From the IMG/VR virus record IMGVR_UViG_3300029989_000043, positions 1 to 46,827 of that record: a DNA stretch of 46,827 nucleotides, one strand, 5' to 3'. How positions within the stretch are numbered: position 1 is the stretch's first letter; each line of letters begins with the position of its first letter. Source of the stretch: a virus. The position numbers were made by a program, and so were the translations under genes. Below the pieces are notes generated by a model. It had not been told where the DNA came from. It worked only from the letters and a program-made list of their open reading frames with translations, and searched no databases. Of the stretch, positions 2,090 to 28,206 are shown piece by piece.

Positions 2090-2962
2090 TCACCATAGCC
2101 ACATCTGGCAGTCGGGCTGGTCCGTGTCGTTGACGTTTTCTTCTTCCATCCACCATGACCAGTATTCGTCTACTGACCCGTATTGCGTGTTGCTCCGAGG
2201 CAACCCGTCTTTACGGGGGATATCTCGCCATTTTACCAGCCAATCCAAAGCAGCTTTTTTCCACATTTTTTCGTAGCGCGGCCACCGGGCAAAATCTCGC
2301 TTTCTCCCCTTCGTTCCGCTCATGGGACACCCGATGCAACCTAAACGGTGATAGCCCTCATCGTAGAGACTGCAATACGTCATGCTGTTCCCGTAGATAA
2401 ATTGCCACACATCATCGTCAGTCCAGTACAATATCGGAGACATTATTGGAGCCTTTTGTCCCGGTATTATTCTGGTTGGTTGCCAAAGCCCTTTCCTTCT
2501 CGCCGACTCTGCGGCTCTTACTCCAACGGCTTTGAATAGACCATTACCGCCCTGCTCCTTGTAAATCGAACAGCACCACCGCATAACTCTAGTCGGCAAC
2601 CCCTGATAATTATCAACCATGTGCCGCAATATATGTTTTTTAGGATTGTGCCAGATCACTTGCGGATACTCCTGTTTGATAAACCACACTAGTTCGGGCG
2701 GGTCGATGGTGACATTGGAGTAATTGAGCGTGTACTGCACTCCCGCCAGCCCAAACAGCTTCGCCATGACAATAGAGTCCTTTCCACCACTGAAGCAGAC
2801 ATAGTACCCATCCGGCGACAGTGCCAGCGCCTGTTTCTCAAACGTGCGGATAAGGTCAATTGCCATTTCAATTTTATCTTGCAATGGGGCACGCAGGGCG
2901 GCCTGGTACATGGCCTCCGTGTCGTCGTTCCCGTATAGGTCAACTATTTTATTTTCAACCAT
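2090..2962 (-). CDS. PAPS reductase / CysH-like protein with four cysteines
   Basis: The 290-residue protein has the N-type pyrophosphatase loop SGGKDS at about 58-63, which binds adenylyl nucleotides. It also has a GVRAAESARR-type substrate segment near 148-157 and two cysteine pairs, RWCC (130,131) and CIGC (209,212), of the kind that holds a 4Fe-4S cluster in APS-reductase-like and DndC-like enzymes. ATG 2962 is chosen because GGGAGG precedes it; a longer upstream frame lacks this. It overlaps the preceding 71-aa gene by eight bases. Many phages carry this family without an assimilatory sulfur pathway, and a role in DNA or RNA sulfur chemistry is only an inference. Its neighbour is a helicase-methyltransferase fusion. 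Confidence 0.85.
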   Translation of the reverse strand: MVENKIVDLYGNDDTEAMYQAALRAPLQDKIEMAIDLIRTFEKQALALSPDGYYVCFSGGKDSIVMAKLFGLAGVQYTLNYSNVTIDPPELVWFIKQEYPQVIWHNPKKHILRHMVDNYQGLPTRVMRWCCSIYKEQGGNGLFKAVGVRAAESARRKGLWQPTRIIPGQKAPIMSPILYWTDDDVWQFIYGNSMTYCSLYDEGYHRLGCIGCPMSGTKGRKRDFARWPRYEKMWKKAALDWLVKWRDIPRKDGLPRSNTQYGSVDEYWSWWMEEENVNDTDQPDCQMWLW

Positions 2963-3170
2963 GCCGCCCTCCCACCATTTTGACATCTTTCTTTTTGGCG
3001 CTGTAATCGTCAAATAGTTTTAGCGAATTGACCAAATAACTACCATCTTCTAACTTCACGATCTGCGGCACACGGTCGTTTGACATGAGGTTTTTTACGT
3101 GGTTAGCACCCGTCCAAACTGGCACGTCCCAGTCTTTCCATTGGCCGTTGTGGTAGTATTTGCCGGTCAT
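2955..3170 (-). CDS. Small hypothetical protein, 71 aa
   Basis: The product begins MTGKYYHNGQWKDWDVPVW and is rich in aromatic and charged residues, with a predicted mixed fold and no membrane segment. Its ATG overlaps the stop of the 55-aa gene by four bases and its end overlaps the CysH-like start, so the three are one translationally coupled unit. No family recognised. The tight coupling suggests expression together with the PAPS-reductase-like protein, but gives no function. Confidence 0.65.
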   Translation of the reverse strand: MTGKYYHNGQWKDWDVPVWTGANHVKNLMSNDRVPQIVKLEDGSYLVNSLKLFDDYSAKKKDVKMVGGRHG

Positions 3171-3391: not shown

Positions 3392-5692
3392 TTATTTTAT
3401 GCCTAAAGAAAGTTGTTTTGCAGTGGTAGAATCTGCCTCTTTACAATTGTTCACGGCTTGTTTCCAATAAGCCGTTTTAAGTTCAATACCAAAAGATTTC
3501 CGGCCCATTTGTAGGGGTACAACTAGCTCAGTACCAATCCCCGCAAAGGGAGTAAAAACAGTATCGCCGGGATTCGTCCAGAGGTCAACTGCCCTTTCAA
3601 CTACTTGAATTTGCAGTGGGCAAATATGGCGCTCATCCGCATCTTCACGGACGCTAAATCTCTGTAAAGTATCGGATGGGTTTATGTCCTGGCTAACATG
3701 CAAAAAACCATCTCCATAATCCGCTGGTTGGATGTTTTCCGCCCCATTAAATGCACTGACTTTCTTTTCTTCCTGCCCGATAACTGCCCATACCGGAGAC
3801 GCATATCGCTGCCATACCGCAACGGGGAACGTATCGTTTGTGTGAGTAACAGGCTCGGTGTTGTCCCCTGGTTTTCGCATAACAACCAGATAATCAGGAA
3901 TGCCCTGGCGGTTCATGCACGAATCTTTTTTGATCTGTTTATGGAGAAGACCAAGCGCCTTAGTCCTTTGCATGGCAGTTACAGGATCTTTCCAAATGCA
4001 AACCTCTGAATGGAATATCCACCCATTATCTGTAAATACTCGTATCAGTTCCCCCCTGAAATCTCTGATCCCGATCACCCCATCGCGTTCCTTGCTCGTT
4101 GGCAGATTCATACAATGAAAAGCCAATAAACGACCGGGCTTGGTAATGCGGTAGAGTTCAGGGACGAGAAACCGGAAATGGTCTGCAAACTCCTTATCGT
4201 TCTTTACGTTACCCATGTCTCGATCACTGTTTGAGTAGGTATAAAGCGACGCAAACGGCGGGGAAAATATTGAGAAATGCATAGAGTTATCGGGAATCCG
4301 TTTAATGATCTCGCACGAATCCCCATTCCAAAGAGTATAATTTTCCGTCTCTACTGATTCTTCAACGTAAACCGACTTGTCTGCCGACGCCCCACGGATA
4401 TTCTTAGTCTCAATTGACTTCATGTTTTCAACCATATTTTCTGCCATTGACATAGCATCCGCCTCTTTTCTTTCAATATTTCTGACAACCGCGCCCTCTG
4501 TTTCAGCAGTGATTACGTGAACTTTTACCGCCTCTTTTTGCCCGAACCTCCAACACCGACGTACTGCCTGGTAGAACTGTTCATAAGAATCAGACAACCC
4601 GACAAAAGCCATGTTGTGGCAGTTTTGAAGATTTAACCCGTAGCCAAACATACTCGCTTTACTAACTAACCGGGATATGGTCCCATCCTGGAATCCGATC
4701 ACTGACTTTTCTTTGTGTTCGATGGAGTCTGCCCCCTTGACTTCAACAGCCCCATCAATAGCCGCTTTAAGTTGAGCACTCTCTTCATTGAGATTACACC
4801 ATATTAACCACTGCTCGTCTGGTTTCTCTGCCACTATCCGTGCGCACTCTGCTACCCTATCCACAATAGTGGATTTGCGCTCATGCTGTCGTTCTTGGAG
4901 AGTGAGCGCTTCAACTGGGAAAAGAAACCCATCCGGAGCTTGATCGACTTTGACTGTATGCTGTTCAATGGTCATTTCAGGAAGAGTGAATAACCCATCG
5001 TCATATCCCAAATCAGATGGCTTGCGGATGTTAACAGCCCATGAACATATCCACCGCCAAAAGTCGTTTTTTGCATGGCCTTTCAACCGCCACTTGGCGG
5101 TATCCCCTCCGTCGTGGACAAAAAACATGGCAAGCATTTCAGTACGGGACATAACACCCAAAAACTCAGAATGGTTGCCAAGTTCCATATAATCGTTCGG
5201 GGCGGGTGTAGCGGTACATGCCAAACGAAAAGGGGTGTTTTGGAATGAATCAACAATCTGATTGCGGAACTTGCCCGAATAAGATTTTAGGATAGAACTT
5301 TCATCCAAGACAATCCCTGTAAAATAAGATGGATCAAAATGGTCAAGCATCTCGTAGTTAGTGATGGATATACCTGGTTTAACCTGATCTTGGTCACGGC
5401 AATATTTTATTTCAATATCAAGATTGTTTTTTGCCAACATTACAGTTTGAGGGGCCACAGCAAGTGGTGCCAGTATTAAAACGTTACCGGGTACATGTTT
5501 TGCCCACTCTGATTGCATTCCTGTTTTATAAAGACCGCAATCGGCAAATATCGCCGCCCGACCGCGTTTTAATGCCCATCGCGTAATATCTCTCTGGAAA
5601 TCGTAGAGAGATTTATTTAATTCAGGTATTACTGTTAGCCCTGTTGGGATATCCACAACAGCTTTATTTTTTAGAAATTCATAGTATTCCAT
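3392..5692 (-). CDS. SNF2-type helicase fused to a beta-class DNA methyltransferase
   Basis: One 766-residue protein with two enzymes. Residues 1 to about 440 form a superfamily-2 helicase: a motif I-like DCGLYKT (51-57), LDES (129-132), TATP (160-163) and a motif VI segment AVRRCWRFGQ. The C-terminal 300 residues form an N4-cytosine/N6-adenine methyltransferase with catalytic SPPF before the SAM-binding FTPFAGIGTE, the IV-before-I order of the beta class. ATG 5692 is preferred to the in-frame TTG upstream. Motif I has Tyr where Gly is normal before KT. Phage helicase-methylase fusions are known; they may protect phage DNA from restriction. Target sequence cannot be read from the protein. Confidence 0.88.
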   Translation of the reverse strand: MEYYEFLKNKAVVDIPTGLTVIPELNKSLYDFQRDITRWALKRGRAAIFADCGLYKTGMQSEWAKHVPGNVLILAPLAVAPQTVMLAKNNLDIEIKYCRDQDQVKPGISITNYEMLDHFDPSYFTGIVLDESSILKSYSGKFRNQIVDSFQNTPFRLACTATPAPNDYMELGNHSEFLGVMSRTEMLAMFFVHDGGDTAKWRLKGHAKNDFWRWICSWAVNIRKPSDLGYDDGLFTLPEMTIEQHTVKVDQAPDGFLFPVEALTLQERQHERKSTIVDRVAECARIVAEKPDEQWLIWCNLNEESAQLKAAIDGAVEVKGADSIEHKEKSVIGFQDGTISRLVSKASMFGYGLNLQNCHNMAFVGLSDSYEQFYQAVRRCWRFGQKEAVKVHVITAETEGAVVRNIERKEADAMSMAENMVENMKSIETKNIRGASADKSVYVEESVETENYTLWNGDSCEIIKRIPDNSMHFSIFSPPFASLYTYSNSDRDMGNVKNDKEFADHFRFLVPELYRITKPGRLLAFHCMNLPTSKERDGVIGIRDFRGELIRVFTDNGWIFHSEVCIWKDPVTAMQRTKALGLLHKQIKKDSCMNRQGIPDYLVVMRKPGDNTEPVTHTNDTFPVAVWQRYASPVWAVIGQEEKKVSAFNGAENIQPADYGDGFLHVSQDINPSDTLQRFSVREDADERHICPLQIQVVERAVDLWTNPGDTVFTPFAGIGTELVVPLQMGRKSFGIELKTAYWKQAVNNCKEADSTTAKQLSLGIK

Positions 5693-5721
5693 AAATGTCA
5701 ACCCCCCGTTTGTTTAACTGC

Positions 5722-18723: not shown

Positions 18724-19191
18724 TTAGTTTGCAGAAGAAACGGTTTTCAATTCGGCCAGCGCCGTAGAGAATTCCGTCAGCACACTGGAGTTGTCCGTTC
18801 CGCCGGCGGATACAATCATACTATTGATCGCCGTGAAATTGGTCTGAAACGTAGCGGCCAGGGTCGCCAACTTGGTCCCGTCCGGGGCCGCATTCGCCGC
18901 CGTGGCATCCGCCAGCAATTGTGCATATTCCTTTTGGGCGGCCAGCGCCAGGGTATAAGCCTCTTTTGCCGCCGTGCAGTATGCGGGTTGAGCAACGCAG
19001 ATTGCGGTGATAGATAAAGACCCCACCGGTTTCATCAACGTCCCGGTGATGGTGTTGATCTTCGTGGCCACGGCCAGTATTTTTGTATTGGCGGCCGTTA
19101 CCTTCGTTTCGATGTTTGAAACGGTAGTGTTATTGCCAGCGCAACCACTAAGCGATAGGAGCAGCAGGGGGAACAGAAACAGTCTCTTCAT
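18724..19191 (-). CDS. Lipoprotein, possible outer-membrane spanin, 155 aa
   Basis: The N-terminus MKRLFLFPLLLLSLSGCAG is a lipoprotein signal with lipobox LSGC, cleaved before Cys. The mature part is Ala/Thr-rich and helical, with long stretches lacking Pro (VSNIETKVTAANTKILAVAT). It is translated from an ATG 44 bases inside the end of the one-TM gene. That overlap and its place at the end of the lysis cassette fit an o-spanin; its length is greater than Rz1. It could instead be an unrelated outer-membrane protein. Confidence 0.65.
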   Translation of the reverse strand: MKRLFLFPLLLLSLSGCAGNNTTVSNIETKVTAANTKILAVATKINTITGTLMKPVGSLSITAICVAQPAYCTAAKEAYTLALAAQKEYAQLLADATAANAAPDGTKLATLAATFQTNFTAINSMIVSAGGTDNSSVLTEFSTALAELKTVSSAN

Positions 19192-19478: not shown

Positions 19479-20039
19479 TCAAGCTCCTTTCAGTCGGTCA
19501 ATATAGACCTGGATATTGTGGTCTTCCGGGTTAATAATTTCGTGGTCATCGTCTTTCAAAATCATAGCCGGTTCGCATTTTTGGTTAAAATTTATAGCCG
19601 GGGTCATAGGGACAGGATCATCGTCACAAATTATGCGGCTGTGAAGCAATTCAGGACCGTTGGTTAGGCGTGAGTATACTCTGGGGCAGCCAAACGTCAC
19701 CACGGGGCAGACAAGAGCTTCTGCGGCTAAAACAGCTATTGCGCCCCCAAGAGAATGGCCGGTGATATAAAACCGTTCGCCTTTTAGGTATTCAATCCGA
19801 GGCCAAAGTATTTTAAAGGCCGAGACAAACCCAGCATGTGCAGGAAAACCTGTAGGACTTTCCACAGTAAGGATATTGAAATCTCGTAACCAATTCTGAG
19901 TATTGGCCGAACCTCGAAATATCAACACTAGGGCTTCTTCCCGTTCGAATATCCCGTAGCGGAGATCATCCACATCAACCCATCCATCCCCGCCTACGTA
20001 TGATTCTTGGCAGAGCTTTGCAAAGTCGGTGTATGTCAC
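19479..20039 (-). CDS. Class-3 lipase (alpha/beta hydrolase), 186 aa
   Basis: The frame starts at GTG 20039, overlapping the 44-aa gene stop (GTGA). All class-3 lipase hallmarks are present: LIFRGSANTQNWLRD (oxyanion side), HAGF, the nucleophile elbow GHSLGG with Ser96, FGCPRVYSRL, DDDPVP (Asp near 141) and a late His174. There is no signal peptide. It is encoded within the lysis cassette, between endolysin and the TM/lipoprotein pair, so an action on envelope lipids at lysis is plausible but unproven. Confidence 0.85.
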   Translation of the reverse strand: MTYTDFAKLCQESYVGGDGWVDVDDLRYGIFEREEALVLIFRGSANTQNWLRDFNILTVESPTGFPAHAGFVSAFKILWPRIEYLKGERFYITGHSLGGAIAVLAAEALVCPVVTFGCPRVYSRLTNGPELLHSRIICDDDPVPMTPAINFNQKCEPAMILKDDDHEIINPEDHNIQVYIDRLKGA

Positions 20040-20231: not shown

Positions 20232-20822
20232 TCAGACAACATACGGCGTTCCGTTATAGTTCGTCAACCTGGCATACCACGAGTGCCGGAATTGAGACTG
20301 TGACGGATCATTGGCGATGATGTTATCATAATACGCCTTTGCTTGGCTATTGCATTTCGCTATCAGGTCCGGGCCGTGCTGGGCATTTACAGCCGCAATC
20401 GTGGCAGGGCCTATCACTCCATCGTCCGTGACCCCTGCGGCCCTCTGTAGCCACCTTTTAGCGACGCCACCACAGTTTACATATTTGTCGAATACCCATT
20501 TTGCAACAGCCTGGTCAATAACATCCGCCAGAGGCCCAAAAAAATTCACCCGGTAAAACTCTTTAACAAGGTTTTGTGTTGTTACGTTTTCTGATAAAAC
20601 CCTATTTAGGTGGGCTACCCAACTCCAATAACTTCCGGTGTTATAGGTAGGCGGGTCAAGCAAAGTTTTTTTTGTGTTGTCGATTATCTGCCAGCCGCCC
20701 CACTTCGGCCAGTTTTTACGGGAAATGCCTTTGTACGTTTCCCCTCCTTTATCATCCGGGTTGTTGGAATAACCACCTTCTTTCCCCATCGTGTTGCCAA
20801 AGCACTTATCAAAGTCACTCAC
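20232..20822 (-). CDS. Endolysin, GH108-type muramidase with PG-binding domain
   Basis: GTG start at 20822, in a GTGA overlap with the 35-aa gene. The N-terminus (MSDFDKCFGNTMGKEGGYSN, then DDKGGETYKGIS) is the GH108 signature, with catalytic Glu15 in KEGGY. The C-terminal half (WLQRAAGVTDDGVIGPATIA) matches a peptidoglycan-binding PG_binding_3 domain. 196 residues is normal. It has no signal peptide, so a holin is needed; candidates are the TM proteins at 19148 and 26463. Role: cleavage of the glycan backbone at lysis. Confidence 0.9.
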   Translation of the reverse strand: MSDFDKCFGNTMGKEGGYSNNPDDKGGETYKGISRKNWPKWGGWQIIDNTKKTLLDPPTYNTGSYWSWVAHLNRVLSENVTTQNLVKEFYRVNFFGPLADVIDQAVAKWVFDKYVNCGGVAKRWLQRAAGVTDDGVIGPATIAAVNAQHGPDLIAKCNSQAKAYYDNIIANDPSQSQFRHSWYARLTNYNGTPYVV

Positions 20823-20926
20823 GTTGCGCCATCCTTTCTATTGTTTGGGTTCCAGGGGCAACCTGCACACTGCCACTTGGTACCATGCCCCCTTCGTGCT
20901 GAGAAATGGGGGCAATGCCAATTCAT
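20819..20926 (-). CDS. Zinc-knuckle microprotein, 35 aa
   Basis: ATG 20926 overlaps the stop of the beta-helix gene and its TGA overlaps the endolysin GTG. The product has HCPHFSARRGHG and then CAGCPWNPNN, a His/Cys set suited to one zinc ion. The two overlaps support it as a real coupled gene. Confidence 0.55.
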   Translation of the reverse strand: MNWHCPHFSARRGHGTKWQCAGCPWNPNNRKDGAT

Positions 20927-22983
20927 CTGCGTTTTTGCTTGAGCAAAGAGATACATTTGGTAGCCTCTTGGTTACTGGACGTATCAGAAGACGCGAAACA
21001 TGCCGTTTGTCTGGGTATATTTCGAAGCATATAAAACGGGGCAGAATATGTCAAGGATGGAGTGCAACCGGCTCCTAGGCAGTACAGGGTTGAATAGCAT
21101 GCCGCGTCTCCAGCGGTACACGTCAAAATGACTTGCTGGCTCGACTGGTATCGGCCCGACTTGTTGGCTGAGGTTGTGGGCGGAATAGCCCCTCCTGTGC
21201 TGCCGCTTCCACTTGTGCCAAGGACTGCCCCATCGCTCCCGTGCATAAGCGCACCCCATGTAATATTTGAGCGAGCGGCGCTTGTTATGTCAGTCAATGG
21301 TGCTATGGTGCTTCCTATTACAGTGGCACCAACGGCAATTGAGTTTTGTCCAATGGCCGAAGAACTGCTTTTCAAAGCAACATCCCAAACATCCCCGTAA
21401 GTATATGATAAAATAGTTGTGCTGCTAAGAGTCATTTTATCTTCAATATTTAATAAAGGGTCAACACATAAAAGATTATTGGTGTTAGGACATTCCGAGT
21501 TACTGAAATTGTAGACTAACCCGTCTTTTTCATCTCTAATAATGGGGTGTGTGCCTGTATCACCGCAAGCACCGGACCCATTCCCGTCTCCGCCCCCATT
21601 GTAATAAAAATTAGAATTTCTGTAGCCAGACAGCCGGAAATAATCACCCAAAAATATATTATTCCGTCCTGTATATGTTTCACCACCCGTGCATGTGGTA
21701 TCATCACCTTTTACCATTACTGCACCACTGCCCGCACTATAAACAGTGCTATTGATCATAGTATTTTTGCTACCCGCAACCGTAAAATGGAATAGCACCG
21801 CAGTACCTTGTGCCCGGCAATTGTCTCCGCCAGCATTATAAAGACTTGATGTTGTATTGGATAAAGGATTACCATTGAAATAATCACAATTCCCTATAAC
21901 AATAGTGTTTTCAACCACGGTTGGCGCTGATGATTTTATCCCATTTCCAGCGTTGCCTTCCATCCGGCAATTAATTACTGAAAGCGTCCCCCCTTGATCA
22001 CCAGCAAGATAAAGCATATCAAGCCCGTCTTGGGTATTGTGTGAAAATTCAGAGTTAGTTATTACCCAGTTGCCACCAGTGAGATATGTACCTATCCCGT
22101 CGCTGTATGCGTTGCCTTCCTCTTGCCCAAAACATCCATATACAGCTTTACCGGGGTAGGTCTCACCACAGCCGTTATAGGTAAAATGGCTATTGCTTAT
22201 GGTGATTGTGCCCGAATTGGAAGAATCGGTCCCACTTCCTATAGCCCCATGACCCACGTCTCCATCCCATCCGACGTTCCCATTTGCATGAAATATGCAC
22301 CCGTCTACAGTCGGGTTTGTAAGCCGCCCCGCGTGAATACCCCCAGTTTCCATTCCGTGAATATTTAAATCCTTGATAGTCGTACCAGTGCTATCTGTCC
22401 AGGCAAGACCGTAATCACCATGATCACCAAAAGGATACGCCGCACGATTACAGGCAGAAGCATCTATCCCCGCCTTGATACAACCAGAATGATCCGTTAT
22501 TTCTAGGTACTGGACAAGTGTGTTGTTGCTCCCTGCAAGATTGATTACCTGAGCCGCTCTTTGGGTCGCCCATAGTTCGGGCGGCGGCGTGGATTTGGTA
22601 TCGTAATTTTTACCCAGGATTCTTGTGGGGTGTGTGGAGTCTGTACCGGAGGGAATTGGCGGAAGTACACACGCATAGGCCCAGGCAGAGTTGCATGATC
22701 CTGTATTGGGCGCGCCATAGCCCATCATGTAGGAGCCGGAAGCGATAATAACGGTATCGCCGCCGGAGATGGACCACGTGCCACCACCCAATCCGTCAAC
22801 TGTAGCGAGCCAATAAGGATGGCTTACAGCACAGGCTTGGCCGGTGCCACTACCGGGATAAGCCGCATCGGCAAGACCGGTGCATTGACTGCTCGTACCA
22901 CCGTCCGTGCGGACGTACCATGTATTTGAGGCAAAAGACAGACTAGGACACAACACCAGTATAAAAAAAATAATGTATCTCAT
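20923..22983 (-). CDS. Secreted right-handed beta-helix protein, 686 aa
   Basis: From ATG 22983, MRYIIFFILVLCPSLSFASN is a clear Sec signal peptide, likely cut after SFA. The mature protein is Gly/Asn/Thr-rich with repeated short strands and N-G turns (GTITISNSHFTYNGCGET, then NWVITNSEFSHNTQDG). This is the parallel beta-helix of pectate-lyase/right-handed repeat proteins. Many cysteines suggest disulfides in an oxidising compartment. A segment near the C-terminus (SANKSGRYQSSQQVILTC) resembles chitobiase/beta-hexosaminidase C-terminal repeats. It lies where tail spikes are expected, yet is marked for export. Function unknown; binding or cutting of polysaccharide is likely for this fold. Confidence 0.75.
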   Translation of the reverse strand: MRYIIFFILVLCPSLSFASNTWYVRTDGGTSSQCTGLADAAYPGSGTGQACAVSHPYWLATVDGLGGGTWSISGGDTVIIASGSYMMGYGAPNTGSCNSAWAYACVLPPIPSGTDSTHPTRILGKNYDTKSTPPPELWATQRAAQVINLAGSNNTLVQYLEITDHSGCIKAGIDASACNRAAYPFGDHGDYGLAWTDSTGTTIKDLNIHGMETGGIHAGRLTNPTVDGCIFHANGNVGWDGDVGHGAIGSGTDSSNSGTITISNSHFTYNGCGETYPGKAVYGCFGQEEGNAYSDGIGTYLTGGNWVITNSEFSHNTQDGLDMLYLAGDQGGTLSVINCRMEGNAGNGIKSSAPTVVENTIVIGNCDYFNGNPLSNTTSSLYNAGGDNCRAQGTAVLFHFTVAGSKNTMINSTVYSAGSGAVMVKGDDTTCTGGETYTGRNNIFLGDYFRLSGYRNSNFYYNGGGDGNGSGACGDTGTHPIIRDEKDGLVYNFSNSECPNTNNLLCVDPLLNIEDKMTLSSTTILSYTYGDVWDVALKSSSSAIGQNSIAVGATVIGSTIAPLTDITSAARSNITWGALMHGSDGAVLGTSGSGSTGGAIPPTTSANKSGRYQSSQQVILTCTAGDAACYSTLYCLGAGCTPSLTYSAPFYMLRNIPRQTACFASSDTSSNQEATKCISLLKQKRR

Positions 22984-22984
22984 G

Positions 22985-23953
22985 TTATAGCCCCAGTATG
23001 AAGTCATCAAGATGATTGCTGGTGAATGTTTCCCTAAACCCAGAGTAGCCCGTTGAAATATCAGAATCCGTAACGGTCGATATCAAAGTCCCATTTTTAT
23101 ATGAAGTCAGGGTTGTCCCATTTGCACACAGCTTTAAAATATCTCCCGTAGTGGCAGAAATATCAGATGTAAGGGATGTTTCAGTGCTAGCTACCCTTTT
23201 TTTAATAGAAAAGTTGTTCGCCGATAGCCAATACAAGGTATCCGTCGATGAATTTATTCTTACCGCTGGGCCTGTTAACCCGCTCACAACCGAAACTATA
23301 GTCACTGTTGCGCATTGATCCGCGCCTGACCATCCGGTGTAGTAGGCTATATTTTGGCTAGTATCAGTGCTACCCTGGACATATCCGCTCACAACCGAAA
23401 CGCTAGTCGCATATGAGGGGATAGCCCATAGGCCGCCGCTCACCGTGGGCAGAGCGCCATCGCTGTATGTGAATGAATCAGTGTAAGACGGGGACCCCCC
23501 ACCAGCCCCCACTCCGGTGCCACTCAAGGCCACCTGCTGCCGGGGGAAGTTAGGGGCTGAGTAATTGAGATACCCGGTAAAACTGCCTGCCGTTGAGGGC
23601 GTGAATGATACGGTTTCCGTGCAACTGGCCATCGAAGCAAGATCAAAAGGGTTAGAACCGCATGTCCTGGATGTTTCGCTAAACCCTGTGCCCGTGACGG
23701 TCAGAACAGCCTGCTCCCAAACGCCTAAACCTGTTGAGGTAAAGGTGAAAACTTTTGTCTTAGACCCACCCGTCGAGACGTTACCAAAGGACCACGAGGT
23801 TGGAGACACAGACACACTTGTGGTTATGTCGGTGTATTGAACTGCCGTGGTACCACCCCACCCAAAATGCCAGCCGCCCCATTGCCAGGCCTGGGCGGGG
23901 ATGGCGCAGGAGATCATACAAGCCACACAGAACGCCAATACTTTGTTTTGCAT
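22985..23953 (-). CDS. Secreted protein with ASH/Ig-like and LamG-like domains
   Basis: The start follows AGGAGGAGGGT. MQNKVLAFCVACMISCAIPA, then QA, is a signal peptide, cut before Trp. The first domain (VSVSPTSWSFGNVSTGGSKT, then KVFTFTSTGLG) is the 'choice-of-anchor D'/ASH beta-sandwich, with a paired cysteine segment. The second (PSYTDSFTYSDGALPTVSGG and YKNGTLISTVTDSDIST) has the look of a laminin-G/concanavalin-like jelly roll that binds carbohydrate. The gene lies between two beta-helix genes. It could be a secreted adhesin or a fibre subunit with an unusual N-terminus. Confidence 0.72.
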   Translation of the reverse strand: MQNKVLAFCVACMISCAIPAQAWQWGGWHFGWGGTTAVQYTDITTSVSVSPTSWSFGNVSTGGSKTKVFTFTSTGLGVWEQAVLTVTGTGFSETSRTCGSNPFDLASMASCTETVSFTPSTAGSFTGYLNYSAPNFPRQQVALSGTGVGAGGGSPSYTDSFTYSDGALPTVSGGLWAIPSYATSVSVVSGYVQGSTDTSQNIAYYTGWSGADQCATVTIVSVVSGLTGPAVRINSSTDTLYWLSANNFSIKKRVASTETSLTSDISATTGDILKLCANGTTLTSYKNGTLISTVTDSDISTGYSGFRETFTSNHLDDFILGL

Positions 23954-23962
23954 ACCCTCCTC

Positions 23963-26158
23963 CTATTTCCCGATGGCAGAAATGGTTCCATCCCAATCAA
24001 CTACTAGCTTTGCGGGGGCACCAGCCCCATTAATTGTATTAAACCCAGGCAATCTGACAATATCGCACTTAGCACCCGCTGCGTACAAAAGGTGGCGATC
24101 ACCTTTAATTACCCACGTTGTGGTGGCCAAGGTATACGATTGTATAATGCCAACAAACGCCATTATACCGGACCCGGCAGAAGATTCTATACGTAAGGCA
24201 TATCCTACGTTTTTGTTATATACGCCATCTACTCCAAAATCATAACTACCACTCAAAGAGGTATTTAACGCTACGTTAGTATTGCCCCCTGTATAAGTCA
24301 TTCCGGTGATCATATTTGCTGTGGTAAAGGTATGCACCACACTTGCAACGTTACTATAAATATTGACAAAACTGCCTAATGTCGATCCCACACTAGTGTT
24401 AGTTTCTCCAACGCTCTTCAATTCTACCGATGGATACGGAGCAGAATACGCAAGGGTGCCGGTAATAGGAAGGTCGGTATCTAACACCGTGATGAGGTTC
24501 CCAGATTCAAGTTTTAAATAATCATAAATAGTATAAAAATCATTTGACCTTATTTGAATACCAGTCATATACCCCGACAAATCCACAACGCATGTATAGT
24601 ATGTGTCGTCATTTGGTTTAAATTGATTTGTTGAAACGGTGACACCATACACAGGATCAGAAGCCGACAACCGGACTAAACCATAACTACCCTCTGAATA
24701 ATTATCTATTATCGCCACAGCTCCGTTAGTATAGCCTCCGCTGTTGTAAAAAGTTAAATCAACAGCGTAAACAACATTTGCCGATGTTGTGGGTTGTGAC
24801 CCACCTGTTTGGCCCGCGTTTCCAGTGCCTGTAAAATCGTTTTCTTTTATGCTTATGCTTCGGCCTTTTATCAACCCGTATATAGCGTTTTTTTCATTAT
24901 ACATAATAATGTTGTTTCTAATAATTAGCTTGTTAGTTTCTCCCGTGTATGTTCCTACAGTATTCCCGATATATATAGCGCTACCACCGTTCTGGAAAAT
25001 AACAGAGTTTTCGATAGTACCAAAGATAAGGCCATACGGGGCGTAAATAGCATGATCTTTAAACCCAGATATTTTGCAATTATTTAAAAAAATGGGTTGA
25101 CCGCCATCTGTATGGGAAATACCGTTTCCACCGGCAGCTTGAATATCACCAAAAATCCCGATACCATCAGCGTACAAACCGTGGGAAAAAACCGAAATAG
25201 CTTGCCCCGTGGTTATAACAGATCCCGTGCATTGAGTTTTGTAAGTACTGTATTTGTTGGTGGTACTCCCCGGCACAGTGTCTGCCCTATCCATAAAAGG
25301 AAGTGTTGGTATTCCTTCTCCGTAAAGTTTAACAGTATAGGCATTGATAGCCGTGGTTGTATAATAAATACCGGTAGGAAGGGTCATTTTAAGGATGTGG
25401 CTGTCGTTGCAACTTGTAAAAGCTCTTTGCAGCGCGACCCCGTTGTCAGTCGTTGCGTCGCCCACCGCCCCCCACCATTGAGGATTAGGGTTGACACTGG
25501 TATTGGTGAAAATTATTCGCCCTGTACCACCAAAAATCTGATACGTTCCCGCAGTGAAAGGCTCCGAGATTCTTAATGTGGTTGTGTTGTTTATGCGCCC
25601 GCCTGGGTGGTAAAATATCTGAGCCCCACAACTGTGAACTGTGGCTGAAGAGATATTGCTTTGCACGGCAGAAAGAGCCGAAGTCACGTGGATAGGGTAG
25701 CTCTGGGCGCATGCAGCGGCCATAGTGGAAGGACCAGGGATTAGCACCCCATTTACTTCGTATTGTATCGGCCCCGTAAATTGTTCAGTATATGTGCCAT
25801 CAGGCGTAAAACATCCCGTGGAGTTTCCAAATGCTGTTACACCTGATGGTGCTTGCCCTGTGGGACATGAAGTACCTGTATTTAACAACGATGTTGCGGT
25901 CCGAGAATTTCCGACAATACCCGATGCAAATGTTTTAATTCCATATAAAGTTTCATTACCTTGAGTATGGGCAAATTGGCTATTAGCTGCTTTTTTTGCA
26001 GTGGACCCATCAAGAAACAAGACACTACCAGATGGATTAAGAGGTATGTTCGCCATTGGCCGATCATTCCACCATTCAACAAATGGAATAATGCCTGCGG
26101 ATGACATTGTTGCTGACATTATCACAAGCATCGGTATTAAAGATAATTTTGTCTTCAT
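23963..26158 (-). CDS. Pectate-lyase-fold protein with signal peptide, 731 aa
   Basis: The N-terminus MKTKLSLIPMLVIMSATMSS (then AGIIPF) is a Sec signal. Around residues 210-250 is NPQWWGAVGDATTDNGVALQ, the classic tail-spike/Pectate_lyase_3 entry motif, followed by beta-helix coils with repeated N-N-I and G-N turns. The C-terminus is strand-rich. In other phages such proteins without a signal are tail spikes that cut host polysaccharide. Here export before assembly is hard to reconcile with a virion role, so a released depolymerase or surface protein should be considered. Confidence 0.75.
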   Translation of the reverse strand: MKTKLSLIPMLVIMSATMSSAGIIPFVEWWNDRPMANIPLNPSGSVLFLDGSTAKKAANSQFAHTQGNETLYGIKTFASGIVGNSRTATSLLNTGTSCPTGQAPSGVTAFGNSTGCFTPDGTYTEQFTGPIQYEVNGVLIPGPSTMAAACAQSYPIHVTSALSAVQSNISSATVHSCGAQIFYHPGGRINNTTTLRISEPFTAGTYQIFGGTGRIIFTNTSVNPNPQWWGAVGDATTDNGVALQRAFTSCNDSHILKMTLPTGIYYTTTAINAYTVKLYGEGIPTLPFMDRADTVPGSTTNKYSTYKTQCTGSVITTGQAISVFSHGLYADGIGIFGDIQAAGGNGISHTDGGQPIFLNNCKISGFKDHAIYAPYGLIFGTIENSVIFQNGGSAIYIGNTVGTYTGETNKLIIRNNIIMYNEKNAIYGLIKGRSISIKENDFTGTGNAGQTGGSQPTTSANVVYAVDLTFYNSGGYTNGAVAIIDNYSEGSYGLVRLSASDPVYGVTVSTNQFKPNDDTYYTCVVDLSGYMTGIQIRSNDFYTIYDYLKLESGNLITVLDTDLPITGTLAYSAPYPSVELKSVGETNTSVGSTLGSFVNIYSNVASVVHTFTTANMITGMTYTGGNTNVALNTSLSGSYDFGVDGVYNKNVGYALRIESSAGSGIMAFVGIIQSYTLATTTWVIKGDRHLLYAAGAKCDIVRLPGFNTINGAGAPAKLVVDWDGTISAIGK

Positions 26159-26170
26159 ATTGTTACCTCT

Positions 26171-26461
26171 TTATTTGTGTGAGAAAAAAGCTACTATATA
26201 ACTAGCCACCACGGTTGCAACGGCTAGAATGATATTGTGTTTTACTTTTGATCCATCATTTATTGGTGCCATTTCCAAGGCACGTATGCGAGTGAATAAA
26301 ATATCGTTATCTCGACGTAATTCAATTAATTGCTCGCCTTGAGCAGCTATTTTTTCAGCAACATTGACAAATCTATCGAGCATGACGGAAATATGTTTTA
26401 GAGTTGATGCATGCTCGCCTAAGATGCCTTCCTTTGAACACGTCTGATGTCCTGGTCCCAT
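26171..26461 (-). CDS. Coiled-coil protein with C-terminal TM, XhlA-like
   Basis: ATG 26461 is chosen because GGGAG lies eight bases upstream; two earlier in-frame ATGs overlap the previous gene. The 96-residue product has a helix/coil (VNVAEKIAAQGEQLIELRRD) and a membrane helix at the end (IILAVATVVASYIVAFF). Coil-then-TM is the XhlA architecture, which acts with holins. It follows the 119-aa TM gene, so both may be lysis-related. Confidence 0.55.
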   Translation of the reverse strand: MGPGHQTCSKEGILGEHASTLKHISVMLDRFVNVAEKIAAQGEQLIELRRDNDILFTRIRALEMAPINDGSKVKHNIILAVATVVASYIVAFFSHK

Positions 26462-26462
26462 T

Positions 26463-26822
26463 TTATTCGCTCCCATCATTAAAAGCACAGTTAGCGCAGA
26501 GTTTTTTTATCATAGCAACTTCTTCCATTGATTCGTTATGTCGTTCGGCAGAGCGCTGGTTTTCTTCTTGTCTCATGGATATAGCAGCGTCGTGAGTTTC
26601 TTTTATCAGTCTCGATTGCCTTTCACCTTCAACACGTGTACCTTTTTGGAGGATCGCAAGAGCTATGAGTTGGATACATGTCTGTGATAACCAGTTTTGC
26701 CATTCAAGTACCGTATGGGGGAGTTGGAAGTATAGAGGGATGACGGCAATAGCGGCGAATGCGATGATCGCCTCATTTGTCCCGAGTGCATCCGTTATTT
26801 TTTCAAAAAAACGGTTTATCAT
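26463..26822 (-). CDS. Two-TM protein with coiled tail, 119 aa (holin candidate)
   Basis: Two hydrophobic segments (EAIIAFAAIAVIPLYFQL; CIQLIALAILQK) are separated by a short WQNWLSQ loop. A charged coil (RQSRLIKETHDAAISMRQEE) and a CANC pair follow. The size, two TM segments and charged tail fit a holin or a small membrane protein of the tail-lysis region. Its start overlaps the secreted 123-aa gene by four bases. Confidence 0.5.
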   Translation of the reverse strand: MINRFFEKITDALGTNEAIIAFAAIAVIPLYFQLPHTVLEWQNWLSQTCIQLIALAILQKGTRVEGERQSRLIKETHDAAISMRQEENQRSAERHNESMEEVAMIKKLCANCAFNDGSE

Positions 26823-27190
26823 TCGACTTCCACCACGGAATTATTGCCTGTCTGCCCAAAACAGCCGGTGTAGTTATAAAACAAATGGTCGTCATTGATA
26901 ACCGTTGATTTTTGTGACCCTGATGCCACGGGTTGTGCAGGATAAAGAGATTTATTTGAAGTATTCATATATCGTACTTGGCACGTCGCAGCCCCATTAT
27001 AATTCATATTTGCCCATAGCCACCCAGTTGTTGGGACGGTGTGAGAAAAATTGTCAGTTACTAAAAAAGTTTTTAAGGAACTGGTAGCTGCCCCTTGGAT
27101 TGGGCCATTAAGGCTTTCTCTCATAGCATAATCTCTTGCATATGAGCTGCTGCAACAGACCAATACAACTAAAAAAATAAATAATCTCAC
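26819..27190 (-). CDS. Small secreted protein, 123 aa
   Basis: MRLFIFLVVLVCCSSSYARD is a signal peptide, cut near SYA. The mature protein has two cysteines and beta-strand-rich, Asn/Thr/Gly content (TTGWLWANMNYNGAATCQVR). It is the first leftward gene after the divergent promoter region at 27210-27242. No family recognised. Confidence 0.65.
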   Translation of the reverse strand: MRLFIFLVVLVCCSSSYARDYAMRESLNGPIQGAATSSLKTFLVTDNFSHTVPTTGWLWANMNYNGAATCQVRYMNTSNKSLYPAQPVASGSQKSTVINDDHLFYNYTGCFGQTGNNSVVEVE

Positions 27191-27271: not shown

Positions 27272-27634
27272 ATGAAAACGCTTATTATTGCCATGGTGCT
27301 GCTTTCCGCTTCTTACTCGTTCGCCGATGAATGGACTAAAACAGATACAGGGTTGCAACTGCTTTACACCGGGCTCCATGTCATCGACTGGGGCCAAACC
27401 GCCCATGAAGCAAAAGAGGGCTGGCATTTCCGGCACGAAACTAATCTTATCCTGGGGGGAGGCCCCAAAGAATCTACTGTTCATATTTATATGGCCTCCA
27501 CTCTTGTTGGGCATGCTGTTATTAGTTATATCTTGCCTAAACCATGGCGACAAATTTGGCAAGGTGCCGGGATAGGCATTGAAGCATGGTGCGTCGGCAA
27601 TAATTATCGCATTGGTATGAATGGGTTCTTTTAA
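27272..27634 (+). CDS. Secreted moron-like protein, 120 aa
   Basis: The ATG follows GGAGG by six bases and the promoter at 27210. MKTLIIAMVLLSASYSFADE is a signal peptide. The mature part contains GLHVIDWGQTAHEAKEGWHF and a probable membrane helix (ASTLVGHAVISYILPKPW), a pattern seen in small phage and bacterial proteins with unknown function. It reads against all tail genes and its stop overlaps the fibre gene stop. Own promoter plus reverse orientation suggest a separately acquired gene. Function unknown. Confidence 0.75.
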   Translation: MKTLIIAMVLLSASYSFADEWTKTDTGLQLLYTGLHVIDWGQTAHEAKEGWHFRHETNLILGGGPKESTVHIYMASTLVGHAVISYILPKPWRQIWQGAGIGIEAWCVGNNYRIGMNGFF

Positions 27635-28206
27635 TTTGGCCCTATTGCTATAAAGGAGACGTTTATATCCGCTGCTGTATTCACCCCATTGAATGATGCT
27701 ATTTCGGCAATTGAATTGGTATAAGATGAAATATGAGCGCTTACGGCGTACCCATTCTGCGGTGAGATAAGTGTCGCGCATACTGAGGGTGAACCACTAA
27801 ATGGTACTGTGAAATTTACAGTATTATTGCCGGTGCTATTATGGGTTACAGTAAATCCAGACCCCGAAATAACGGCACCCGTGCCCCCATTATACATTCC
27901 TCGTATTATTTTAAGCCCCGTTTCAAGGGAGGAAGGGGCACCGTCTGATTTTGTCATTACATTGGCAAGGACTGTCTCAAGCGTAGAGATATTGGCATCG
28001 GAGACGTTATAGCCTTTTGTTGCCATCATCTGTGCGAATGCAGCAACAAAGGTAGAAACCTGAAAGGCTAATTTGTTGAAGCTATTCGATGCATAAATAC
28101 CTGTTACCGCCCCGCCTGACCTTACAGTGTCAGTAGAGTACTGGCTGTCCGTGAGTTGGTTATTTGCCGAAGGGTTGTGTTGAAGGAAATTCGTTGAGCC
28201 TGGCAT
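27631..28206 (-). CDS. Tail fibre-like protein, 191 aa
   Basis: The N-terminal half (MPGSTNFLQHNPSANNQLTD, then YSTDTVRSGGAVTGIYASNS) is the Asn/Gln/Ser-rich start typical of phage fibre and baseplate-attached proteins. The C-terminal half is strand-rich (GFTVTHNSTGNNTVNFTVPF), like short receptor-binding knobs. It follows DUF2612, the usual place for the first fibre gene. It probably attaches to the baseplate. It lacks a signal peptide, unlike the large proteins farther left. Confidence 0.65.
   Translation of the reverse strand: MPGSTNFLQHNPSANNQLTDSQYSTDTVRSGGAVTGIYASNSFNKLAFQVSTFVAAFAQMMATKGYNVSDANISTLETVLANVMTKSDGAPSSLETGLKIIRGMYNGGTGAVISGSGFTVTHNSTGNNTVNFTVPFSGSPSVCATLISPQNGYAVSAHISSYTNSIAEIASFNGVNTAADINVSFIAIGPN

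Follow-up and report, generated by a model that had tools for sequence, protein, structure and literature searches.

The window analyzed here comprises the 46,827 nucleotides (positions 1 to 46,827) of IMG/VR virus record IMGVR_UViG_3300029989_000043. Its head and tail genes are those of a contractile-tailed phage, with a structural module of the SEN34/Magia/EKP1 type. A capsid search for the host in phylum draws gave a best match of only 32% identity.

Three signal-bearing genes in the lysis block

Three ORFs of 731, 322 and 686 amino acids form one tight run on the minus strand (Table 1), separated by gaps of 9 and 1 bp. All three start with ATG, and ribosome-binding sites precede the 322-aa gene (AGGAGG) and the 731-aa gene (AGAGG).

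Table 1. Positions of the features discussed, in window coordinates.
Feature	Position	Strand	Remarks
Phosphoadenosine phosphosulfate reductase-like gene	2090-3013	-	
Protein with matches to DNA helicase as well as DNA methyltransferase families	3392-5701	-	
Rz1-like lipoprotein ORF	18724-19191		lysis block
Class 3 lipase	19479-20039	-	lysis block; PF01764, 4e-15
Endolysin	20232-20822	-	GH108 + PG_binding_3 (domain matches); next after the three genes
686-aa signal-peptide protein	20923-22983	-	right-handed beta-helix; six predicted disulfides
322-aa signal-peptide protein	22985-23953	-	ASH/choice-of-anchor-D-like domain
731-aa signal-peptide protein	23963-26158	-	fiber repeat HTQGNETLYGIKTF after the signal, then pectate-lyase-like beta-helix
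105-aa weakly XhlA (hemolysin)-like protein	26171-26488	-	C-terminal hydrophobic stretch; PHROG_937, E 3.5e-4; probably lysis-related
123-aa signal-peptide protein	26819-27190	-	upstream of the three; score 5.09; no family match
120-aa signal-peptide ORF	27272-27634	+	between fiber-slot gene and lysis block; score 4.84
191-aa protein, conserved tail-fiber slot after DUF2612	27631-28206	-	assigned by synteny; no signal peptide

Signals were scored with a rule-based scorer made for this analysis, which considers the charge of the n-region, the h-region and the -3/-1 rule and applies a cut-off of 3.5. The scores were 4.18 for the 731-aa protein, 4.35 for the 322-aa protein and 5.16 for the 686-aa protein, the last obtained with an upstream TTG as the start of the ORF. 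With the putative cut placed by eye, the N-termini are MKTKLSLIPMLVIMSATMSSA followed by G, MQNKVLAFCVACMISCAIPAQA followed by W and MRYIIFFILVLCPSLSFA followed by S, respectively. Each has a charged n-region, a hydrophobic h-region and an AxA-like cut with small residues at -3 and -1, and thus the type I Sec pattern; the three consecutive Sec signal peptides claimed in the preliminary description are borne out by this prediction. The scorer was positive for 17 of 681 other large viral ORFs without fiber motifs, several of the 17 being fiber-like or cell-wall enzymes. At this background the chance of three signals in a row is ~1e-5, so the three consecutive positives are not a matter of chance. 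Together with the cysteine pairs described below, the signals make Sec export of the three proteins likely.

The run had been placed at the usual fiber or spike position, which the gene order contradicts. In SEN34 the tail fiber is the gene right after DUF2612, and in EKP1 a fiber assembly gene follows the gene after DUF2612; synteny with both phages puts the fiber slot of the window at the 191-aa gene, whose product has a weak Gp53-like_C match (0.011, below the cut-off). The three signal-bearing genes lie between the XhlA-like protein and the GH108 endolysin, and thus in the lysis block rather than strictly in the fiber slot. The class 3 lipase of this block has relatives in phage loci L113, L246, L258 and L276 and is related to the lipase of Burkholderia phage BgManors32; L246, L258 and L276 also bear signal-bearing fibers of the PGQVLTA type described below.

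The 731-aa protein matches the PHROG_17212 "pre-neck appendage" family over residues 228-728 (E 1.8e-77, 262 bits, most of the family covered), and its fiber repeat is a motif common to at least 120 viral stretches and frequent in tail fibers. Both features fit a virion part. Its beta-helix, called in the preliminary description, falls just short of the PF13229 cut-off (25.5 against 25.9), and AlphaFold of the protein alone gave an unusable model (pLDDT 31). A PHROG_17212 search of about 500 genomes was uninformative, as the matches mostly covered one short stretch of the profile (~130-200). The 322-aa protein had been described as ASH/LamG-like. It matches Pfam Cep192_D4 (2.1e-6) and NCBIfam choice_anch_D (3.7e-10; 40.3 against 45 bits), both below the curated cut-offs, so that the ASH part of the description stands at that level, as an ASH/choice-of-anchor-D-like domain; no LamG domain was found in the protein and no docking domain was recognized. 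Because tblastn found no match in phages for either the 731-aa or the 322-aa protein, their kinship is thin. A stretch related to the 322-aa protein occurs in bacterial locus L045, in a reading frame beside a gene of the 686-aa family, a hint that the two types of protein may work together.

An exported beta-helix family of mainly bacterial members

The beta-helix call held for the 686-aa protein, in which PF13229 (Beta_helix) scores above the cut-off. When bacterial and archaeal genomes were searched with a profile, 114 stretches with relatives came up, of which 80 were kept; they come from Omnitrophota, Chloroflexota, Acidobacteriota, Lysobacter and Thermodesulfobacteriota, among others. The best distinct long relatives have ~50% identity (L019) and the nearest long viral relatives ~36%; a short fragment of viral origin, L013, has 50%. 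A tree groups the window protein with L019, from a deltaproteobacterial MAG, as its sister (support 99/88). A single capture of the domain by phages was rejected since the tree needs at least three changes across well-supported branches, a result that is provisional because the phage branches are long. Near-identical family genes occur in a Lysobacteraceae MAG and a Chloroflexi MAG (L029 and L030), and one of these two bins is probably contaminated.

Almost all bacterial members start with a signal peptide according to the same scorer. The 78 genes that flank about a dozen bacterial loci have their matches chiefly among glycosyltransferases, polysaccharide deacetylase, GH123 and GH114. Capsid and packaging families were absent from the top matches of these genes, so the loci look chromosomal, and a prophage origin of the bacterial relatives is not supported.

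In an alignment of 57 sequences, the phage copy included, eight cysteines are invariant (C34, C51, C168, C178, C272, C284, C366 and C389), C97 and C105 vary together exactly (54 and 54), and C498 and C506 co-occur with one exception, which is the pattern that six neighboring disulfides would give, with C34-C51, C97-C105, C168-C178, C272-C284, C366-C389 and C498-C506 as the predicted pairs. Also invariant across these sequences are D76, D164, H209, D295, D319, D322, K350 and R390, a set that appears enzyme-like. In the structure model, residues 21-360 are mostly above pLDDT 90 and the signal residues are low; the beta-helix begins at residue 21, leaving no room for a docking domain. The best fold matches, at modest TM-scores, are GH136 lacto-N-biosidases, the pectate lyase Pel9A, a rhamnogalacturonan lyase, the AlgE4 epimerase and PL6 lyases, with tail spikes also present among the viral matches. 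The family profile touches AlgE4 at E 0.0059.

These sequence comparisons place the 686-aa protein in a large family of exported beta-helix proteins, most of them bacterial. The window protein shares with the bacterial ones (e.g., L017-L096) the signal peptide, the beta-helix, the six cysteine pairs and the conserved D/H/K/R residues, at 33-48% overall identity in the alignment. Unlike them, its gene is phage-borne and lies in a lysis block. The choice-of-anchor Q domain, often found in the bacterial family, has no match in the window protein; with 46 of the 57 members carrying it, it is a common accessory and not a defining feature. The C-terminal tail of the window protein has a weak chitobiase-C-terminal-like match, below the cut-off. 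Because its nearest kin are bacterial, the 686-aa protein probably represents a captured exported, and putatively glycan-active, protein.

A lysogeny-type surface role, one of the options raised in the preliminary description, is unsupported: a PHROGs scan that covered 20 non-lysis genes of the window turned up no integrase, and neither a surface anchor nor a lipobox was seen on the three proteins. The exported proteins might instead act on the receptor from within the infected cell, by binding or trimming it, and exclude other phages, which would be compatible with the export signals and the glycan-active fold. A place in the lysis block fits release more readily than exclusion, no lipobox or anchor was seen, and we found nothing specific for exclusion; we therefore consider such surface modification quite improbable.

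Signal peptides on fibers of other phages

Classical beta-helix spikes and depolymerases, such as those of P22 and of Klebsiella phages, have no signal peptide, carry an N-terminal docking domain and assemble in the cytoplasm. The window proteins resemble them in the beta-helix fold and in predicted glycan activity but depart from them in their predicted signals. The statement in the preliminary description that tail spikes lack signals is mostly true, with exceptions, as signal-bearing proteins of the fiber type recur, including in cultured phages. The GenBank note of Bcep1 gp51 reads "possible tail fiber; possible signal peptide domain", and relatives of gp51 are present in Bcep781, Bcep43 and BcepNY3. 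A tail protein of BgManors32, the phage that gives the top baseplate-J match of the window, also has a predicted signal peptide. These proteins (the Bcep781-type fiber is PHROG_32740) resemble those of the window as signal-bearing proteins of the tail-fiber type in cultured myoviruses; they differ in that the Bcep781-type fibers have a PGQVLTAxxLN-like module whereas the three window proteins lack PGQ(V/I)LTAxxLN, and Bcep1 gp51 lies outside the lysis block.

The Tunturiibacter phages Tunturi_1 and Tunturi_2 are podoviruses of Acidobacteriota and in this differ from the window phage. Like it, they have several neighboring signal-bearing genes close to the endolysin (gp12-gp17), and their gp17 has the same beta-helix domain (30-32% identity over half the protein), to which it adds, unlike the 686-aa protein, N-terminal sequence, a C-terminal chitobiase-type domain and an Ig-like domain. 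In Tunturi_1 the signals were found by score in gp12, gp14, gp16 and gp17 and by eye in gp13. The annotation calls some proteins of this run (L002, L115) tail spikes or virion structural proteins. Tunturi_4 gp113 is signal-bearing, as is its relative gp111, which is annotated from a later start; their N-termini are conserved (54% over 100 aa).

We scanned IMG/VR with three fiber motifs (TFWRGDGTW, HxxGxETxxGxKTF and PGQVLTAxxLN). Signal peptides were scored in 34 of 206 complete motif-bearing proteins, compared with the 17 in 681 of the background, in a survey that rests on the rule-based scorer, on ORFs rather than curated genes and on loci picked by motif. Mature proteins with a signal contain 0.89% cysteine and those without 0.44% (p 1.1e-6, uncorrected for kinship), an enrichment driven mainly by the TFW set and not significant in the KTF or PGQ set singly. 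In 10 of 267 viral loci (e.g., L012, L015 and L255), two or three large genes with signals follow one another. Two adjacent signal-bearing fiber-like genes, with a PGQVLTA module and then a TFPVxNLxVxG module, occur in L240, L255, L279 and L284; in L240 and L279 the pair lies directly ahead of holin- and endolysin-like genes.

Among the PGQVLTAxxLN fibers, 20 have a signal that ends directly before the module. Eleven were scored without a signal, and in most of these no more than about 20 residues separate the Met from the module, so that the signal appears to be an add-on ahead of a standard fiber module; one of the 11 (L271) looks like a signal shortened by the ORF start. Such signals recur in spikes and fibers of numerous unrelated phages. 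It is therefore probable that certain phages pass proteins that bind or cut sugars through the host export machinery instead of placing all of them into intracellular particles. That the N-terminal segments are hydrophobic anchors or leftovers of gene capture would be conceivable given that the prediction is rule-based only. We give this very little credence, because a charged n-region, an h-region and an AxA-like cut are found in each of the three proteins, signals are kept across divergent phages, the cysteine pairs are kept in the phage 686-aa protein, and signal-bearing fibers are enriched in cysteine.

Proposed secretion at lysis and possible assembly into virions

Of the interpretations offered in the preliminary description, secreted polysaccharide-binding or -degrading proteins are the best supported, by the exported family of the 686-aa protein beside polysaccharide genes, its cysteine pairs and its acidic and histidine residues. 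We judge it somewhat better than an even bet that the three are Sec-exported, disulfide-bonded, glycan-active proteins acting at lysis. Starting from what the sequences show, namely the order of the genes, their signals and homologies, the paired cysteines and the conserved polar residues, we infer the following course. A single run of genes would yield the three proteins late in infection, the 686-aa member having been captured from the bacterial exported family. The Sec pathway of the host, which we take to be diderm, would carry them into the periplasm, where the signals would be cut and the proteins would fold with disulfide bonds. No route across the outer membrane was found, so they may remain periplasmic until lysis and would be released at or before it. 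Once outside, they may bind and degrade surface or extracellular polysaccharide of the host and so help progeny to escape and not stick to spent cells, much like a receptor-destroying enzyme. Secretion is favored by the enzyme-like conservation, the bacterial kin in polysaccharide loci, the lysis-block location, the separate signal-less fiber and the fact that no docking domain was recognized on two of the three proteins; the signals on three consecutive genes and the cysteine enrichment in signal-bearing fibers elsewhere lend further support. Against it speak the fiber repeat and appendage match of the 731-aa protein, the tail spikes among the fold matches, and the PGQVLTA family, in which the mature start coincides with the start of signal-less fibers.

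As a less probable reading, the proteins would be virion spikes: exported by Sec, they would acquire their fold and their disulfides in the periplasm and attach to virions once lysis has opened the inner membrane. Joining of virions outside the cytoplasm, also among the earlier proposals, is raised by the PGQVLTA fibers, in which the signal precedes a standard module. It would also account for the N-terminus shared by Tunturi_4 gp111 and gp113, typical of a common docking site, for the location of the Tunturi_1 run in the tail region, and for the repeats and appendage match of the 731-aa protein. However, the window, BgManors32 and Bcep1 each have a separate signal-less fiber candidate after DUF2612 or the equivalent, no docking domain is common to the 322- and 686-aa proteins, and a literature search returned no report on signal-bearing tail fibers or on a signal-bearing virion protein of a tailed phage; the Tunturi paper contains no proteomics. 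The likeliest candidates for this route are the 731-aa protein and the PGQVLTA fibers. The broader claim, that in many tailed phages part of the fiber and spike set is exported by Sec, folds with disulfides outside the cytoplasm and joins virions at or after lysis, seems to us unlikely.

The prevailing assumption is that the fibers and spikes of tailed phages fold and assemble in the cytoplasm. The choice between secretion and virion assembly is directly testable in the cultured phages Tunturi_1, Tunturi_4, BgManors32 and Bcep1. The recurring export signals would mean either that infection has a secreted, glycan-degrading arm whose proteins are now annotated as "virion structural" or that there is a second assembly route, and host-range predictions in which each spike counts as a virion receptor-binding protein would have to be corrected.
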